A DNA stretch of 64,000 bases, from the NCBI GenBank assembly GCA_002162075.1, contig CP021423.1:1054001-1118000 (forward strand), read 5' to 3'. The notes below the pieces were generated by a model. It saw only the letters and a list, made by a program, of their open reading frames with translations. It was not told where the DNA came from and ran no database searches. Source of the stretch: Armatimonadetes bacterium Uphvl-Ar1. GTDB lineage: Bacteria; Armatimonadota; Fimbriimonadia; Fimbriimonadales; Fimbriimonadaceae. Shown here in pieces: positions 10,975-16,785 of the stretch; the stretch's first letter is position 1; every line of letters begins with the position of its first letter. The translations under genes were made by a program, and so were the position numbers.

Positions 10975-11901
10975 TTAGTAACTTTGATAGATGTTTGTCA
11001 CTGAGCCATCATCGAATAAATCAATCACGGCAAATCCGGGGCCGAATTCGTAGTAGTTGCCGCCCCACCATGCCCCAGAAACCGCCCCATTGCAGTAGTA
11101 ATCAACGCCAAGAAAATTGGCCATGTCAACTTGGTGCATATGACCCGAAACTGCAGCTTTGACATTAGGATGGTTGTGGAACAGGTTCTTGAGGCGAAGA
11201 AAATCAATGTGCATCCACGAACCGGGAACAACCCAGTTTCCAGATTTGGCGTTGTCACCATCTACGAATCCGCATACGCACAGAAGCGGGATGTGAGATG
11301 AGAGAAGAATGTTGGTTTCCTTTGGAGTGGACTTGAGTTCGTTTTCGAGCCATTCGAATTGAGGCTCATCCAATTTGGCTGTGTAACCACTGCCACTCGG
11401 ATAAGTGCTATCGAGCACGATGATTTTCCAGTTGTTCTTCGTAACGGAGTGATACGGTTTGGAAATCTGAAATTGCTCCATGCACCAATTTTTGCCCCAT
11501 TTTGCTTCTTGTCCGGATGTTTGAGACGAGGACTTGTTCCACCCCCAGATGTCGTGATTTCCGATCGTGTGTATGGCGGGGATTTCGAGATTTGCCTTCT
11601 TAACAGAATTGTAGGAATCCCATTGGGCTTTAGTTTTGGATTCGTCAGCGACAAATGCGTCCATGATTTCATCTCCGCCGAAGAGGATGTAGTCGGGTTT
11701 GGGATCGAGAGATTGGGCGGCTTCGAGGGCTTTCTGGAATCCCAGTTGAGCTTTTGATTCTGTTGTGATATGGGTATCGGTGAGGTGAGCGATGCGGAGT
11801 TGTCGTTTGGGCGCGGGTGTTTGGGACGACGGGAGAAGAGCGGAGGCTCCGGCAAGAAGAGAAGTGCCGAGGAGGGATCGTCGGGTGAGGCTTTGGGACA
11901 T
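10975..11901 (-). CDS. Tat-exported calcineurin-like phosphoesterase
   Basis: 308 residues from ATG 11901. I prefer this start over ATG/TTG codons further 5' because those fall inside a terminator stem. A twin-arginine signal (LTRRSLLGTSLLAGASALLP) indicates folded export. The metallophosphoesterase motifs follow in order: HLTDTHI, GGDEIMD (the usual GD-x-x-D), GNHDIW and the SGHMHQVD histidines, so both metals can be bound. It resembles CpdA/YfcE-type phosphodiesterases or phosphatases; the substrate is unknown. It is transcribed after a PEP-CTERM gene but is separated from it by a strong hairpin, so it is probably a separate unit. Confidence 0.8.
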   Translation of the reverse strand: MSQSLTRRSLLGTSLLAGASALLPSSQTPAPKRQLRIAHLTDTHITTESKAQLGFQKALEAAQSLDPKPDYILFGGDEIMDAFVADESKTKAQWDSYNSVKKANLEIPAIHTIGNHDIWGWNKSSSQTSGQEAKWGKNWCMEQFQISKPYHSVTKNNWKIIVLDSTYPSGSGYTAKLDEPQFEWLENELKSTPKETNILLSSHIPLLCVCGFVDGDNAKSGNWVVPGSWMHIDFLRLKNLFHNHPNVKAAVSGHMHQVDMANFLGVDYYCNGAVSGAWWGGNYYEFGPGFAVIDLFDDGSVTNIYQSY

Positions 11902-11910
11902 CTGTAAGAA

Positions 11911-11940
11911 CATACCCAGGGGAACGAACCCCTGGGTATG
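11911..11940 (-). terminator. Hairpin terminator after the first PEP-CTERM gene
   Basis: A perfect 12-bp inverted repeat (arms 11911-11922 and 11929-11940) with a six-base loop. On the minus strand it is followed by TTCTTA. It lies 27 bases past the stop of the PEP-CTERM gene and overlaps alternative starts of the phosphoesterase, which supports the later start chosen for that gene. Confidence 0.75.
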
Positions 11941-11967
11941 AGTTTAACGGAGATTTATTCTTCGGAT

Positions 11968-12726
11968 TTACTTTTTGCGTCGTCGGAGGGCAGCCATTGC
12001 AGCGGCCCCGGCGAGGATGGTCATAGTGGCGGGTTCGGGGATGGCTTCGGATGTAACTGAAATGTTATCAATGCCAACCCATTCGTCAGCTCCCTGTGCA
12101 TCAACAGTCATAATTCGGAACTGAAGGTCTGCGATATTGTCCCATTGTGTTAAGGACGAAGTAATGTTATAATTTGGCCCAGATTGCGAGCCGAGAGTTG
12201 CATCTGCCACATACGCTCCAGCTATTTGCGTAAAGTTGCCAAAATTTCCAATTCGATATTGCAATGTGACTTGCTGGATAGCATTGTCAGTTCCCGATTC
12301 GAGATCACGTATATCAAATGAGATTTGGACGTTCTTACGTCCGGTCGCATTCATATAGAGAACGAGATGTGGCGCCCGAGCAGTACTACTTCCTGCAAGG
12401 GCAATAGTCGAATCAGTTAGCTGAAATTCTGTAACGCCTCCTGAAGTGAACGAATTAGGGTTGGTTTGATTCGCATTAACATCTAGTGGCGTTGATGAGC
12501 CATCAGCCAAAATCGTACGCGCATCAGTTGCAGCGGCAGTTGCGAGACCATCTCCCCGGTAACCCATAATACTTGCGACACCAGACCAATTGTCATCTAA
12601 CGTTATGAGGGAATTGTTTGACCAGTCTTGTGTGAAGTCTGATGCAGAAAGATCGTGGGCAATTGTGGTCGCACTTGCAGCTGTGGCGAGGCACAGGGGT
12701 GCCGCGATGAGAATGAGTTTTTTCAT
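11968..12726 (-). CDS. PEP-CTERM sorting-domain protein
   Basis: A 252-residue exported protein. A Sec signal (MKKLILIAAPLCLATAASAT) and a C-terminal PEP-CTERM signal frame it: IPEPATM, then a hydrophobic helix, then the basic end RRRKK. Such proteins are cut by an exosortase and released to the surface or matrix; no exosortase gene is in this window. The middle is a beta-rich, Ser/Thr/Asn-rich domain with no catalytic motif I recognise. SD GAGAGGAG lies close before the ATG. It is paralogous in signal and leader to the next gene. Confidence 0.85.
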   Translation of the reverse strand: MKKLILIAAPLCLATAASATTIAHDLSASDFTQDWSNNSLITLDDNWSGVASIMGYRGDGLATAAATDARTILADGSSTPLDVNANQTNPNSFTSGGVTEFQLTDSTIALAGSSTARAPHLVLYMNATGRKNVQISFDIRDLESGTDNAIQQVTLQYRIGNFGNFTQIAGAYVADATLGSQSGPNYNITSSLTQWDNIADLQFRIMTVDAQGADEWVGIDNISVTSEAIPEPATMTILAGAAAMAALRRRKK

Positions 12727-12864
12727 TTGTGCTCCTCTCGAGTCCCCAAATCAGGGACACCGATGTCAATACTTTACCAAAAGACCAAGCACAATTCCTG
12801 TGCGATGGGATGATAAACACTAAATTTAACAGTAGCCCGGCAAAGACTGGTAGTTTTGCCGGGC
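12727..12864 (-). promoter_or_regulatory. Leader of PEP-CTERM gene 1 with conserved distal hairpin
   Basis: Reading the minus strand, a perfect 10-bp stem (arms 12855-12864 and 12835-12844) with a ten-base loop ACTACCAGTC stands 108 bases before the ATG. Immediately before the ribosome-binding site is a small GTCCC...GGGAC hairpin. Both elements, and the last 45 bases including GAGAGGAGCACAA, recur before the second PEP-CTERM gene while the sequence between differs. It could be a regulatory RNA, an operator or a duplicated promoter. Confidence 0.6.
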
Positions 12865-13011
12865 AATCAAGGTCATCTGAGAAACTTATCTAAGCTAATT
12901 TGAAGTCGCCCCTGACTGTGCTAGCCTGACAATGCACATTTATTCATCATCAACTCAACTGCTTGTTTGCGAGCTCGGTCGAGTCACACGGTTCAGTTTC
13001 GGTTGACCTTA
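12865..13011. other. Non-coding part of the longest gene-free gap
   Basis: Between the two PEP-CTERM genes the gap covers 12727-13069 (343 bases). The right end holds a terminator hairpin and the left end the leader of the first gene. In this middle part I see no open frame, tRNA, repeat or clear promoter. Confidence 0.6.
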
Positions 13012-13053
13012 GGGGATACTGATTCAAGGAGATTCTTGAATCAGGCCCCTTTT
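13012..13053. terminator. Terminator hairpin downstream of PEP-CTERM gene 2
   Basis: A perfect 10-bp stem (13019-13028 with 13035-13044) and six-base loop GAGATT, extended by outer GGGG/CCCC pairing across a small bulge. It starts 17 bases after the stop of the minus-strand gene. The T-run is on the plus-strand side, so on the minus strand it would act as a stem without a U-tract or as a bidirectional element. Confidence 0.6.
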
Positions 13054-13069
13054 CAATTCAAAAATGCAT

Positions 13070-13855
13070 CTATTTTCGCCGCCGATGCGCAGCAATGGCG
13101 GCGGCACCGGCGAAGATAATCATGGTTGCCGGCTCAGGCACGGCATCAGCAGTTACTGATACATCATCAATTGTCAGGAAGTGATCGTTGCTTACATCGT
13201 TGAGGTCTATCCAACGCAGCATGAGCGTCTCGCCCGCTTGGAGAGTGAGTCCGGTCAATCCAGAACTCAACGAAGTACTGTTTGTGGGTAAATTTCCGTC
13301 TAGAGCGCTTCCACCAAGACCTACTGTTGGACTTGTAAATGTCAGGCCCGCAACGCTGGTTACGGTCGCTGCAAGCAGCGCGGGAACGGTAGGAGAAGTG
13401 CCAACTGCATAGCCGAACGTAAGTGCTTGGCTCGAAGGAAAGTCTCTCCTGAATTGTTCTCCTCGGAAGGAGACAACAAAATTTTCGAGTGCGGAACTCG
13501 AATTGTTTGTGAGGAAAAGTGCGAGCGCGTTTCTCCCGGTCCCAGATGCGCCCGAGAATGCGTTCGATGGAGCAAAACCAATTGAGCGATCAGTCAATGG
13601 ATTGATGCCTGTTACACCAAAGGAGTACAATCCTGCAGTGGTGGTCGACCCGGTATTGATTCCGATGGTCGAAATTGAAGGGGTTGCATCAGTTCCGGCA
13701 TACCAACCCGCCAACGTTGTGTTGTTAGACCAGGTTGTGCTCGAAGTTGACGGCAACGAATCAAAGTTTTGGGAATATGATCCTGCGAAGTTGATTTGCG
13801 CCGATGCCATTGTGATCAGGCACAGCGGTGCCAGGATTAGGATGAATTTTTTCAA
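13070..13855 (-). CDS. PEP-CTERM sorting-domain protein
   Basis: 261 residues, started from TTG 13855, which lies at the position of the ATG in the sister gene and behind the same GAGAGGAG ribosome-binding site. Signal peptide MKKFILILAPLCLITMASAQ, then a beta-rich Ser/Thr/Gly domain with FAGSYSQNFDSLPS at the N-terminus, often seen in PEP-CTERM beta-sandwich proteins. The C-terminal VPEPATM, hydrophobic helix and RRRK end follow. Signal and sorting ends match the neighbouring PEP-CTERM protein closely but the central domains differ, so this is duplication with divergence or module exchange. A surface or matrix role is inferred. Confidence 0.85.
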   Translation of the reverse strand: MKKFILILAPLCLITMASAQINFAGSYSQNFDSLPSTSSTTWSNNTTLAGWYAGTDATPSISTIGINTGSTTTAGLYSFGVTGINPLTDRSIGFAPSNAFSGASGTGRNALALFLTNNSSSALENFVVSFRGEQFRRDFPSSQALTFGYAVGTSPTVPALLAATVTSVAGLTFTSPTVGLGGSALDGNLPTNSTSLSSGLTGLTLQAGETLMLRWIDLNDVSNDHFLTIDDVSVTADAVPEPATMIIFAGAAAIAAHRRRK

Positions 13856-13995
13856 TTGTGCTCCTCTCGAATCCCCAAAATCAGGGACAGCGATAGGGAT
13901 AGTTTACCAACAGTCCAAGATGAAGTTACTAAGATTGATGTTATCTGTGCGATATTTTCCAAAGGCCCGGCAAAGACTGGTAGTTTTGCCGGGCC
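13856..13995 (-). promoter_or_regulatory. Leader of PEP-CTERM gene 2 with the same distal hairpin
   Basis: The hairpin at 13964-13995 has an 11-bp stem and the identical loop ACTACCAGTC seen before the first PEP-CTERM gene, and starts 108-109 bases from the TTG. The hairpin also sits eight bases past the stop of the upstream BNR gene, so it could double as that gene's terminator, but no U-tract follows. The proximal TGTCCCTGATTTTGGGGA element and SD are conserved too. Confidence 0.6.
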
Positions 13996-14003
13996 GAGTC
14001 AGA

Positions 14004-16682
14004 CTATTCGAGAATTGTAACTGTGCCTTCTTGGGTGTGATCGCCCATTTTGAGCTTAATCTTGTAGGTTCCGGGCCGGCAATGCCACTTGTTCATCATC
14101 ATTTCTTCCGATTTGTCGGCGAGTTTGTGCCAATCGTCGGGTTCCATGTTCCAGACGATGCGGTTGTAGCCCGGGGCGTTTGAACCAGAGAGTTTTTTGA
14201 CGGTCACTCCCTTCTCGTTTTCAATGACGCAGGAGACTTCATCACCCGTATATTCGTTGACCCAATAGTCAATGACGATTCCGAACGGGGCATTTTTTGC
14301 GCGGAACATTTTGTGGCTCCAGAGGCCGTTGTAATGAAGGAATTGCCGTGATTTGCCGGGCTTGGACGAGAACAAGTGCAAGGGCTTGGCTAGGTTCTCA
14401 GCGGTTGCATCGCCGAGCCAGTTGGCGTTGTCAAGAACCCACACTGAGCGTCCGTGAGTTGCAATGACAAGATCGCGCTCGCGTTTGTGCTGCTTAATGT
14501 CGTAGACCGGGACAGTGGGCAGTCCTTTCCCGTGCATTCTCACCCAAGTTTCCCCCTGATTGAGGCTGACGTACATTCCAGATTCTGTTCCGCAGTAGAG
14601 AACGTTCTCGTTGGCGTCGTCCTCACGAACGAGCATTACGCTGTGGCTTTGGGGGAGATTGGACGAGATTTCGCGCCAAGTCTTGCCAAAGTCATTGGTA
14701 ACCATGATGCATGGAGTCATGTCGTCCATCCGGTGACCATCAAAGGTAGCGTAGCAGCGGCTCTCCTTGAAATGGCTGGCTTCAACCCGGCTGACGTAGC
14801 GACCGCCGGCATCCTTGGGGGTGACGTTCTCCCATGATTTGCCATCGTTCTGGGTCACGTGAACCAATCCGTCATCTGACCCGGACCAGAGAAGACCGGC
14901 TTTGATTGGAGATTCGGCAAGACTCACGAGGGTACAGAAGTTTTCCGCATTTGAACCAGCGGCAACCATCTTGGAGCCATCGGCGGTTGTGAGATCGGGG
15001 CTGATCGCTTCCCAGTTGTCGCCTTTGTTCGTGAGTTTGAACACCATGTTGCCCCCAAGATAGATTGCGTGGGGTTTGTGTTGACTCACGAAGAAGGGGG
15101 CGTTCCAGTTGAAACGGTGTTTGGGTTGACCTTCGCGGGCTTCCGGGATGAGCCATCGTCGTTCGCCGGTTTTGAGGTTGACTCGGGTCAGGTTGCCGCC
15201 TTGCCATTCAGCGTAAACGATGTTTTCGTCTTCAGGGTCAAAGTCAGTGTGGAAGCCATCTCCCCAGAGGATGAAGTCAATGTCACCGTTGGTTAAGCCG
15301 GTCGCCGGGGTGCGGCAAGCTTTATCTTCTTCGGCTTCGCGAACAAAGTTTGTCGAGGGCCAAACCCACGAACCATTGTCTTGGAGTCCACCAGAAATTC
15401 GATATGGCTCTGAGTTATCGATCGCGATGTTGTAAAACTGACCGACTGCGATGGTGTTGAGAAAATCCCAGTTTTCCCCTTTGTCGAAAGTGAGGTAGGC
15501 ACCGCCATCGGTTCCGACAATGATGTGGGTGGGGTCAGTGGGGTTAACGATGATTGCGTGATGGTCGGCATGGAGTAGGTCTCCCCATCCGCCCCGGAAA
15601 GTTTCGCCGCCGTCGTCGCTGACTTCGGTTGTCCATCCAAGCATGTAGACCCGGTTGTCGTCTTGACTATCGAACTTGATTTTGCTGAAGTAAAACGCGC
15701 GTGGGGATCTGTGGGAACAGCGTCGCCAGGATTCGCCTCCATCATCGGAACGGAAAACCCCACCTCCGCGCATACGGTCGTCGCGAATTGAGTTTGCCCC
15801 GCCATCGGTTGCTTCGACCACGGCAATTAGCTTTTGAGTGTCTTGGATGAAGACGTCAAGCCCGATGCGACCGGTGTTCTTGGGTAGGCCCTTGGTGAGT
15901 TGTTTCCAGGTTTTTCCGCCGTCGGTTGACTTGTAAATACCGCCCTTTTTGCCGCCGGATTTGAAGCTGTATGAAGATCGGATTCGCTCGTAGAAAGCTG
16001 CGTAAATCGTATCAGGATTTTTGGGATCTAGGGCGACGTCACAGCATCCGGTCTTCTCGTCAAGGTAGAGGACTTTATCCCAGGTTTTCCCGCCATCTGA
16101 AGTTTTGAAGAGACCCCGTTCTTGGTTGTATCCCCACAGATGACCGAGAGCGGCGACATAGCAAACATCTGGATTGCGGTGGTCTACAACGAGGCGAGGG
16201 ATATCGTGAGTGTCTTTGAGGCCAACATTTGTCCAAGTTTTGCCGGAGTCGGTGGAACGGTAAACCCCGTTACCCCAACTGGATGAATTCCGACCATTGC
16301 CTTCTCCTGTCCCGACCCAAATGATGCGCTCTTTGCCCTTTTCAAGTCGGTCCGCTTTCTTAATATCGCTCGTCCAACCTTCCCAGTCTGTTGGTGCATC
16401 GCAAACGGCGATTGCTCCAATAGCGCAAGTCTCTTCTTTGTCAAACAGGGATTCGAATGTCACGCCGTGATTCTTTGATCGCCAGAGACCAGATGTTGCG
16501 TAGGCAACAAAGAACGTTTTGGGGTTTCCGGGGGCAAAACACATATCGCTGATCCGACCGCCCATGACAGCGGGGCCAACCGAACGCCAGGGGAGTCGCT
16601 TGAGGTCATTTTCGGTTAAGACTCGGGTGGGTGATGTCTGCGTTGAGGCAACTTCTTTCGGAGCGGCTTTCTTGGATGCCAT
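14004..16682 (-). CDS. BNR/VPS10-like beta-propeller protein without signal peptide
   Basis: About 892 residues from ATG 16682; an ATG nine codons earlier is also possible. Many Asp-box repeats are visible (STDSGKTWTNVG, TSDGGKTWDKVL, STDGGKTWKQLT, SDDGGESWRR, THGRSVWVLD), giving two seven-bladed propellers as in sortilin/VPS10 or GH74-like proteins. A C-terminal beta domain follows. The paralogue at 57202 has a Sec signal; this one begins MASKKAAPKEVAS and has none. GH74 catalytic Asp pairs cannot be asserted from sequence alone. Substrate unknown; glycan or protein binding is plausible. Confidence 0.75.
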   Translation of the reverse strand: MASKKAAPKEVASTQTSPTRVLTENDLKRLPWRSVGPAVMGGRISDMCFAPGNPKTFFVAYATSGLWRSKNHGVTFESLFDKEETCAIGAIAVCDAPTDWEGWTSDIKKADRLEKGKERIIWVGTGEGNGRNSSSWGNGVYRSTDSGKTWTNVGLKDTHDIPRLVVDHRNPDVCYVAALGHLWGYNQERGLFKTSDGGKTWDKVLYLDEKTGCCDVALDPKNPDTIYAAFYERIRSSYSFKSGGKKGGIYKSTDGGKTWKQLTKGLPKNTGRIGLDVFIQDTQKLIAVVEATDGGANSIRDDRMRGGGVFRSDDGGESWRRCSHRSPRAFYFSKIKFDSQDDNRVYMLGWTTEVSDDGGETFRGGWGDLLHADHHAIIVNPTDPTHIIVGTDGGAYLTFDKGENWDFLNTIAVGQFYNIAIDNSEPYRISGGLQDNGSWVWPSTNFVREAEEDKACRTPATGLTNGDIDFILWGDGFHTDFDPEDENIVYAEWQGGNLTRVNLKTGERRWLIPEAREGQPKHRFNWNAPFFVSQHKPHAIYLGGNMVFKLTNKGDNWEAISPDLTTADGSKMVAAGSNAENFCTLVSLAESPIKAGLLWSGSDDGLVHVTQNDGKSWENVTPKDAGGRYVSRVEASHFKESRCYATFDGHRMDDMTPCIMVTNDFGKTWREISSNLPQSHSVMLVREDDANENVLYCGTESGMYVSLNQGETWVRMHGKGLPTVPVYDIKQHKRERDLVIATHGRSVWVLDNANWLGDATAENLAKPLHLFSSKPGKSRQFLHYNGLWSHKMFRAKNAPFGIVIDYWVNEYTGDEVSCVIENEKGVTVKKLSGSNAPGYNRIVWNMEPDDWHKLADKSEEMMMNKWHCRPGTYKIKLKMGDHTQEGTVTILE

Positions 16683-16785
16683 AGGTTCACGGGAGTATAC
16701 GCACCTCATCAGCGAAAAATGCCCTGAACATTTAACGAATCCTGTTTTTGGAATACAGAAATTTGCCCTATACTAAGACTCAGGG

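Follow-up and report, generated by a model that had tools for sequence, protein, structure and literature searches.

The 64,000-nt window analysed here, from Armatimonadetes bacterium Uphvl-Ar1 (contig CP021423.1), carries two paralogous PEP-CTERM genes on the minus strand, gene 1 at 11968-12726 (252 aa) and gene 2 at 13070-13855 (261 aa), with gene starts assigned by simple rules; gene 2 is the one of the pair that has orthologs in sister species. A Sortilin/Vps10 BNR-repeat gene (Vps10-like gene) lies at 14004-16709 on the same strand. As an earlier note on this DNA had reported, an identical 30-nt hairpin, GCCCGGCAAAACTACCAGTCTTTGCCGGGC, precedes both PEP-CTERM genes on the minus (coding) strand, and exact matching placed copy 1 at 12835-12864 and copy 2 at 13965-13994, at distances of 108 and 109 nt from the start codons of genes 1 and 2. 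The spacers differ, as the note had also stated, and both flanks have diverged; within the 30-nt tract the two copies show 100% identity. The 10-nt loop that the note described was not borne out by the predicted fold, in which it is mostly paired: an ACT-acc-AGT segment prolongs the stem, so that just a triloop and one bulged C stay unpaired, and in copy 2 a further G-C pair lengthens the hairpin to 32 nt.

No third copy of the hairpin was found in the 2.985-Mb genome, and with two copies only it lacks the high copy number per genome of dispersed palindromic repeats of the REP/MITE-like kind. When the 22-nt hairpin core was searched with up to three mismatches, few matches were obtained among 120 relatives; 4 of the 12 weaker matches in other genomes (L038, L042, L043, and L048) adjoin PEP-CTERM genes, an association that was noticed post hoc.

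The hairpin at the 3' end of the Vps10-like gene

In a terminator-type position, copy 2 opens about 9 nt past the Vps10-like stop codon, and a hairpin follows this codon in 7 of 8 genus members, with differing sequences and whether or not a PEP-CTERM gene lies next to it. In G003, G005, and G001 the PEP-CTERM gene is absent and the hairpin after the stop codon is still there; in G004 and G007 the orthologous PEP-CTERM gene is present and the hairpins at the same place are unrelated to ours in both stem and loop. The hairpin shares with intrinsic terminators a GC-rich perfect stem right after a stop codon, and differs from them in having no T-run after the stem (TACTGTTAAA and CTTTGGAAAA come next); a terminator scan also gave no match. 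A missing T-run is usual in this genome: among 24 strong hairpins at gene 3' ends (L126-L145), 19 had none and only 5 were followed by one, and the classic U-tract may be rarely used for termination in it.

The region between the two PEP-CTERM genes contains, at 12924-13005 on the minus strand, a decayed duplicate of the Vps10-like gene's 3' end, which adjoins hairpin copy 1 (score 23.5, against 12.7 +/- 2.2 for shuffled sequences, of which 2 in 2000 scored as high). Given this relic between the two genes, the unit was therefore duplicated in tandem. In G006 (PNMZ01000002, 'bacterium isolate BC.035'), the nearest sister, the locus contains a single hairpin and a single PEP-CTERM gene. As a side observation, this lone PEP-CTERM gene (L091) appears to be chimeric, its leader, signal peptide and C-terminus being gene 1-like and its body gene 2-like. 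The identity of the two hairpin copies exceeds chance, yet it is partly explained by the tandem duplication, and judged by its sequence context the 30-nt hairpin is a duplicated 3'-end hairpin and not a conserved RNA element.

A cis-acting RNA element, with the 30-nt hairpin sitting in the leader and controlling translation or mRNA stability, would account for the perfect stem and the fixed distance to the start codon. Against it, the predicted -10 boxes, TAAAGT for gene 1 (12771-12776, minus strand) and TAAACT for gene 2 (13901-13906, minus strand), sit 50-51 nt ahead of the start codons and downstream of the hairpin, and because the hairpin is upstream of the predicted -10 box it would fall outside the predicted transcript. 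In addition, orthologs replace stem and loop with unrelated sequences, a match in genus g25 is oppositely oriented, and the Rfam covariance models gave no match at E values up to 1 across positions 11500-15000. We consider the RNA-element reading very improbable, and it was rejected on the turnover among orthologs and the position of the predicted promoter.

A palindrome upstream of PEP-CTERM genes

An unbiased k-mer search of the region from -200 to -60 of the 47 PEP-CTERM genes of this genome recovered GTA-N4-TAC 11 times against 0.6 expected, AAA-N2-TAC 20 times against 3.7 expected, and GCA-N4-TAC 14 times against 2.1 expected, and related k-mers were also recovered upstream of the PEP-CTERM genes of G004. 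When aligned, the k-mers gave a 16-bp DNA palindrome, CCnGYA-WWWW-TRCnGG, and 20 clustered matches were obtained across the 47 PEP-CTERM genes against none across 64 control genes. Two PEP-CTERM genes of this genome (L011 and L024) have oddities at their starts, one having ATA where its G006 ortholog has an ATG start codon and the other being seemingly frame-shifted near the start, which may be either real decay or assembly errors.

A matrix built from the palindrome scored above 10 upstream of 27 of the 47 PEP-CTERM genes of this genome (24 of 47 under leave-one-out), leaving about 43% of them without a site, and upstream of only 1 of the 64 control genes. In the held-out genomes the corresponding counts were 17 of 29 in G006, a near relative of the window genome and hence no independent test, 16 of 29 (55%) in the more distant G004, and 10 of 28 (36%) in G014, which belongs to another genus; flank backgrounds were 0.032, 0.008, and 0.004 per 180 nt. 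When G004 alone was used for training, the matrix matched 51% of the PEP-CTERM genes of our genome and 2% of the controls. De novo k-mers gave no clear motif in G014, although the matrix scores sites there. Over 1.98 Mb of the genome, scores above 14 were found for 15 of 40 PEP-CTERM genes as compared to 21 of 1765 other genes (Fisher P 3e-17, with the matrix trained on the genome's own sites). An exact search with the 16-bp IUPAC pattern found 24 occurrences genome-wide against 17 for the reversed control; this search was dropped as too loose and the matrix was used instead. The pattern being barely in excess, the case for the operator therefore depends on position and on the full matrix.

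The palindrome occurs in both window hairpins. Its 16-bp core, CCGGCAAAACTACCAG, lies at 12847-12862 inside copy 1 (score 17.4) and the second at 13977-13992 inside copy 2 (score 17.2), and the window holds no further site above 12.5. The genes orthologous to the window locus in G004 and G007 have weak sites only (7.9 and 10.8). The hairpin's 5' arm together with its 'loop' would constitute a 16-bp palindromic operator that marks a PEP-CTERM regulon. The earlier note had proposed selection on an RNA or protein-binding site from the conserved loop bases; the second half of this proposal is supported, as the loop bases stand in a DNA palindrome of protein-binding type, and the RNA half did not, in view of the ortholog turnover and promoter position described above.

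Operator centres lie at -115 +/- 18 relative to the start codon with -10-like boxes between operator and start, and for most sites 41-92 bp separate the centre from the -10 box downstream. In both window copies the distance from operator centre to predicted -10 box is equal, 78.5 bp, although the spacers differ. For distances of at least 40 bp in our genome and G004, with -10 boxes chosen by a simple score, the operator-to-box distances recur at intervals of about 10.5 bp (n=36, R 0.47, jitter P 0.0002), and the two species share one phase. An activator would need such one-sided contact with the DNA, and the binding protein may well occupy one helix face upstream of a sigma-70-type promoter and activate transcription from there.

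The hairpin might instead do no more than close the Vps10-like gene at its 3' end as a terminator-type structure, having been copied along with the gene downstream and resembling a regulon site by accident. Its position just past the stop codon, the hairpins of differing sequence at that place across the genus, the 3'-end relic beside copy 1 and the frequency of strong 3'-end hairpins without a T-run in this genome all fit such an origin. The operator score, however, still reached about 14.8 when both window sites were omitted from training, a level at which about 0.5% of random 330-nt stretches score (above 14), and neither the 30-nt identity between diverged flanks nor the equal distance to the -10 box across differing spacers is what a terminator alone would lead one to see. 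We regard this explanation as unlikely. In the reading that we prefer, the hairpin form at this locus would arise from a 3' arm that pairs with the operator to give a 3'-end hairpin for the Vps10-like gene, and the tandem duplication would have copied it. The outcomes that the earlier note had listed as speaking against its proposal, namely a terminator, a plain duplication or a position outside the transcript, largely describe the hairpin and do not describe the operator within it.

A candidate LuxR/GerE-PAS regulator

One of the best sites away from PEP-CTERM genes, with a score of 18.7, occupies the interval between two divergent genes, one of which codes for a LuxR/GerE helix-turn-helix protein of 248 aa (G000:C1:316984-317730, minus strand). 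The protein has a GerE domain at residues 4-52 (PF00196, 35.5 bits against a cut-off of 23.5), which places it in the LuxR/GerE helix-turn-helix family, and a PAS_3 domain at 143-222, both above Pfam cut-offs. A structure model shows helices at residues 4-43 and a 65-residue helix that joins GerE and PAS_3. A PDB sequence search with the protein gave no match, and the top matches from Foldseek were to PAS/LOV domains only. The palindrome was present upstream of the gene in all five testable orthologs (G000, G006, G004, G002, and G001; 43-100% identity) with scores of 15.9-18.7 and embedded in differing surrounding sequence, while 0.4% of random stretches score above 15 and the upstream regions of 22 other LuxR-HTH homologs from other genera reached 9.8 at most.

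Conservation of the palindrome upstream of the candidate's own gene is, as far as sequence goes, the usual sign of autoregulation, and the candidate is named mainly because this site stands before its own gene in all testable orthologs. The LuxR/GerE-PAS protein is most likely, and is our best candidate for, the binder of the palindrome. In the model, its long coiled coil and the palindromic site are compatible with binding of a dimer to the inverted repeat. The proposed regulator would thus be a dimeric LuxR/GerE-type protein with an N-terminal HTH, a long coiled coil and a C-terminal PAS sensor through which it would sense a signal, and it would bind its own promoter too.

The palindrome could also be a shared operator bound by some other LuxR-type protein, or by a protein of another family, the LuxR-PAS gene being just one more target. 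Sites do occur before unrelated genes, for example a site scoring 19.9 before a LacI-type regulator/PfkB-type kinase pair, and G014 has operator sites and, with homologs of the candidate at the HTH level only, no close ortholog of it; another protein may fill the regulator's role there. The regulator was likewise not detected in G003, which has 39 PEP-CTERM genes, or in G005. Such a binder is less in keeping with a site that persists before the candidate gene in each of the five testable orthologs, of which the most distant has 43% identity, and with a recognition-helix region (C/M-IS-x-RTVEGHW) that is nearly invariant within the genus, and we find this alternative rather doubtful. Taken as a whole, our reading, in which the 16-bp operator marks a PEP-CTERM regulon that the LuxR/GerE-PAS protein binds, activates and autoregulates, the hairpin form being a separate matter, seems probable to us. 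The shared controller of surface proteins suggested in the earlier note is accordingly likely in the form of a DNA operator, with the palindrome upstream of many PEP-CTERM genes, and not in that of an RNA hairpin.

PEP-CTERM proteins are part of the extracellular matrix or surface in many environmental bacteria, and the only PEP-CTERM regulon found in the literature consulted for comparison is that of PrsR and sigma-54 in Proteobacteria; a literature search found nothing joining PEP-CTERM with Fimbriimonas, and PEP-CTERM and Armatimonad- co-occurred in one paper only, with a single mention of each. The proteobacterial regulon depends on PrsK/PrsR with sigma-54 (Haft et al., 2006, PMC1569441; PMC9850573); a short DNA motif lies upstream of 99 of 167 PEP-CTERM genes and the regulator was assigned by comparative genomics (PMC1569441; PMC9850573), and among the species discussed the motif was shared only by Proteobacteria (Haft et al., 2006, PMC1569441). 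The two regulons are alike in having a motif before more than half of the PEP-CTERM genes and some tens of bp before the promoter. They differ in that the PrsR regulon has a -24/-12 promoter and a motif ending in TTTACA, whereas here there is a 16-bp palindrome and a LuxR/GerE-type candidate; the operator at times contains TTTAC, while its consensus is a palindrome different from the 17-nt motif 1 of Haft et al. None of the 47 PEP-CTERM upstream regions held a sigma-54 promoter of the -24(GG)/-12(GC) type with 8 of 11 consensus matches, and a GAFTGA-type motif was found in a single ORF in 1.98 Mb of genome. The PEP-CTERM regulon here is analogous to, but distinct from, the PrsR/sigma-54 regulon, because sigma-54 sites are absent and both the operator and the candidate differ.

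The candidate also resembles the Streptomyces PAS-LuxR regulators PimM and PteF, which combine a GerE-type HTH with a PAS sensor outside two-component systems and bind a 16-bp inverted repeat (PMC4700089). In PimM the PAS domain is N-terminal, and the protein binds CTVGGGAWWTCCCBAG at the -35 hexamer (PMC4700089). Our candidate likewise joins a GerE-type helix-turn-helix with PAS outside a two-component system and would bind a 16-bp inverted repeat, the domain order being the reverse (HTH at 4-52 N-terminal, the 65-residue helix, PAS at 143-222 C-terminal), the consensus differing and most sites lying well upstream of -35. The lux box of LuxR has the half-site CCTGTA and a central spacer of 6 bp; the half-site here, CCnGTA, is similar and the spacer is 4 bp. 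The candidate has no match to an autoinducer-binding domain.

Leader hairpins and further predicted targets

The GTCCC/GGGA element that the earlier note had listed with the 30-nt hairpin is present, and proved to be a hairpin of its own next to the ribosome-binding site: GTCCC..GGGAC at 12742-12758 (minus strand) abuts the gene 1 ribosome-binding site on its 5' side, and its counterpart at 13871-13888 (minus strand) does so for gene 2. Leaders of PEP-CTERM genes in this genome showed excess structure in the window from -50 to -12 (mean Z -1.37, n=47; -0.12 for the 64 controls), which was absent from flanking windows and peaked at -42 to -12 (P 4e-4). Mean Z values were -1.09 in G006, -1.18 in G004 and, more weakly, -0.61 in G014; G006 was less clean, as a far window from -170 to -132 was structured too (-1.04). 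Stem sequences vary from gene to gene, and the GTCCC/GGGAC of the window locus is TCCGC/GCGGA in G004 and AATCCGC/GCGGATT in G007. Between orthologs of our genome and G006, where divergence is too small for covariation to carry weight, 3 of 26 changed pairs were compensatory as compared to 14 of 720 non-structure pairs. The leader hairpin probably lies near the mRNA 5' end, and its role is likely to be mRNA protection or translation control.

Names of the additional targets were assigned by reading the sequences, including that of the LacI-type regulator above, and these targets are single-genome observations. Operator sites lie directly upstream of two flagellin genes (score 20.1, G000:C1:2744441, L256:2939; score 15.4, G000:C1:2330083, L255:2581), and a site scoring 14.2 lies in an intergenic gap about 270 bp upstream of the start of a GGDEF gene (G000:C1:187001, L257:3002). 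The two flagellin sites suggest that flagella and surface proteins are under a common controller, and a single sensor may serve both flagellar and matrix genes. An operator before about half of the PEP-CTERM genes, and probably before the gene of its own binder, points by its distribution to an undescribed cell-surface master switch. Tentatively, and as a possibility that we would not yet favour, one autoregulated LuxR-type protein of reversed domain order might serve as this switch in this bacterial family, driving flagellins and a diguanylate cyclase along with dozens of PEP-CTERM proteins that are sorted by exosortase, all via one palindromic operator, with the leader hairpins as a second layer of control. 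A lineage unrelated to Proteobacteria appears to have evolved its own PEP-CTERM regulon, and a defined operator, a named candidate and a target list make this directly testable. As a separate observation, G063, which belongs to another genus, has three tandem PEP-CTERM genes (L098:1617-3795), two of which are separated by a region with an oppositely oriented, operator-like palindrome that differs from the hairpin core by one mismatch.
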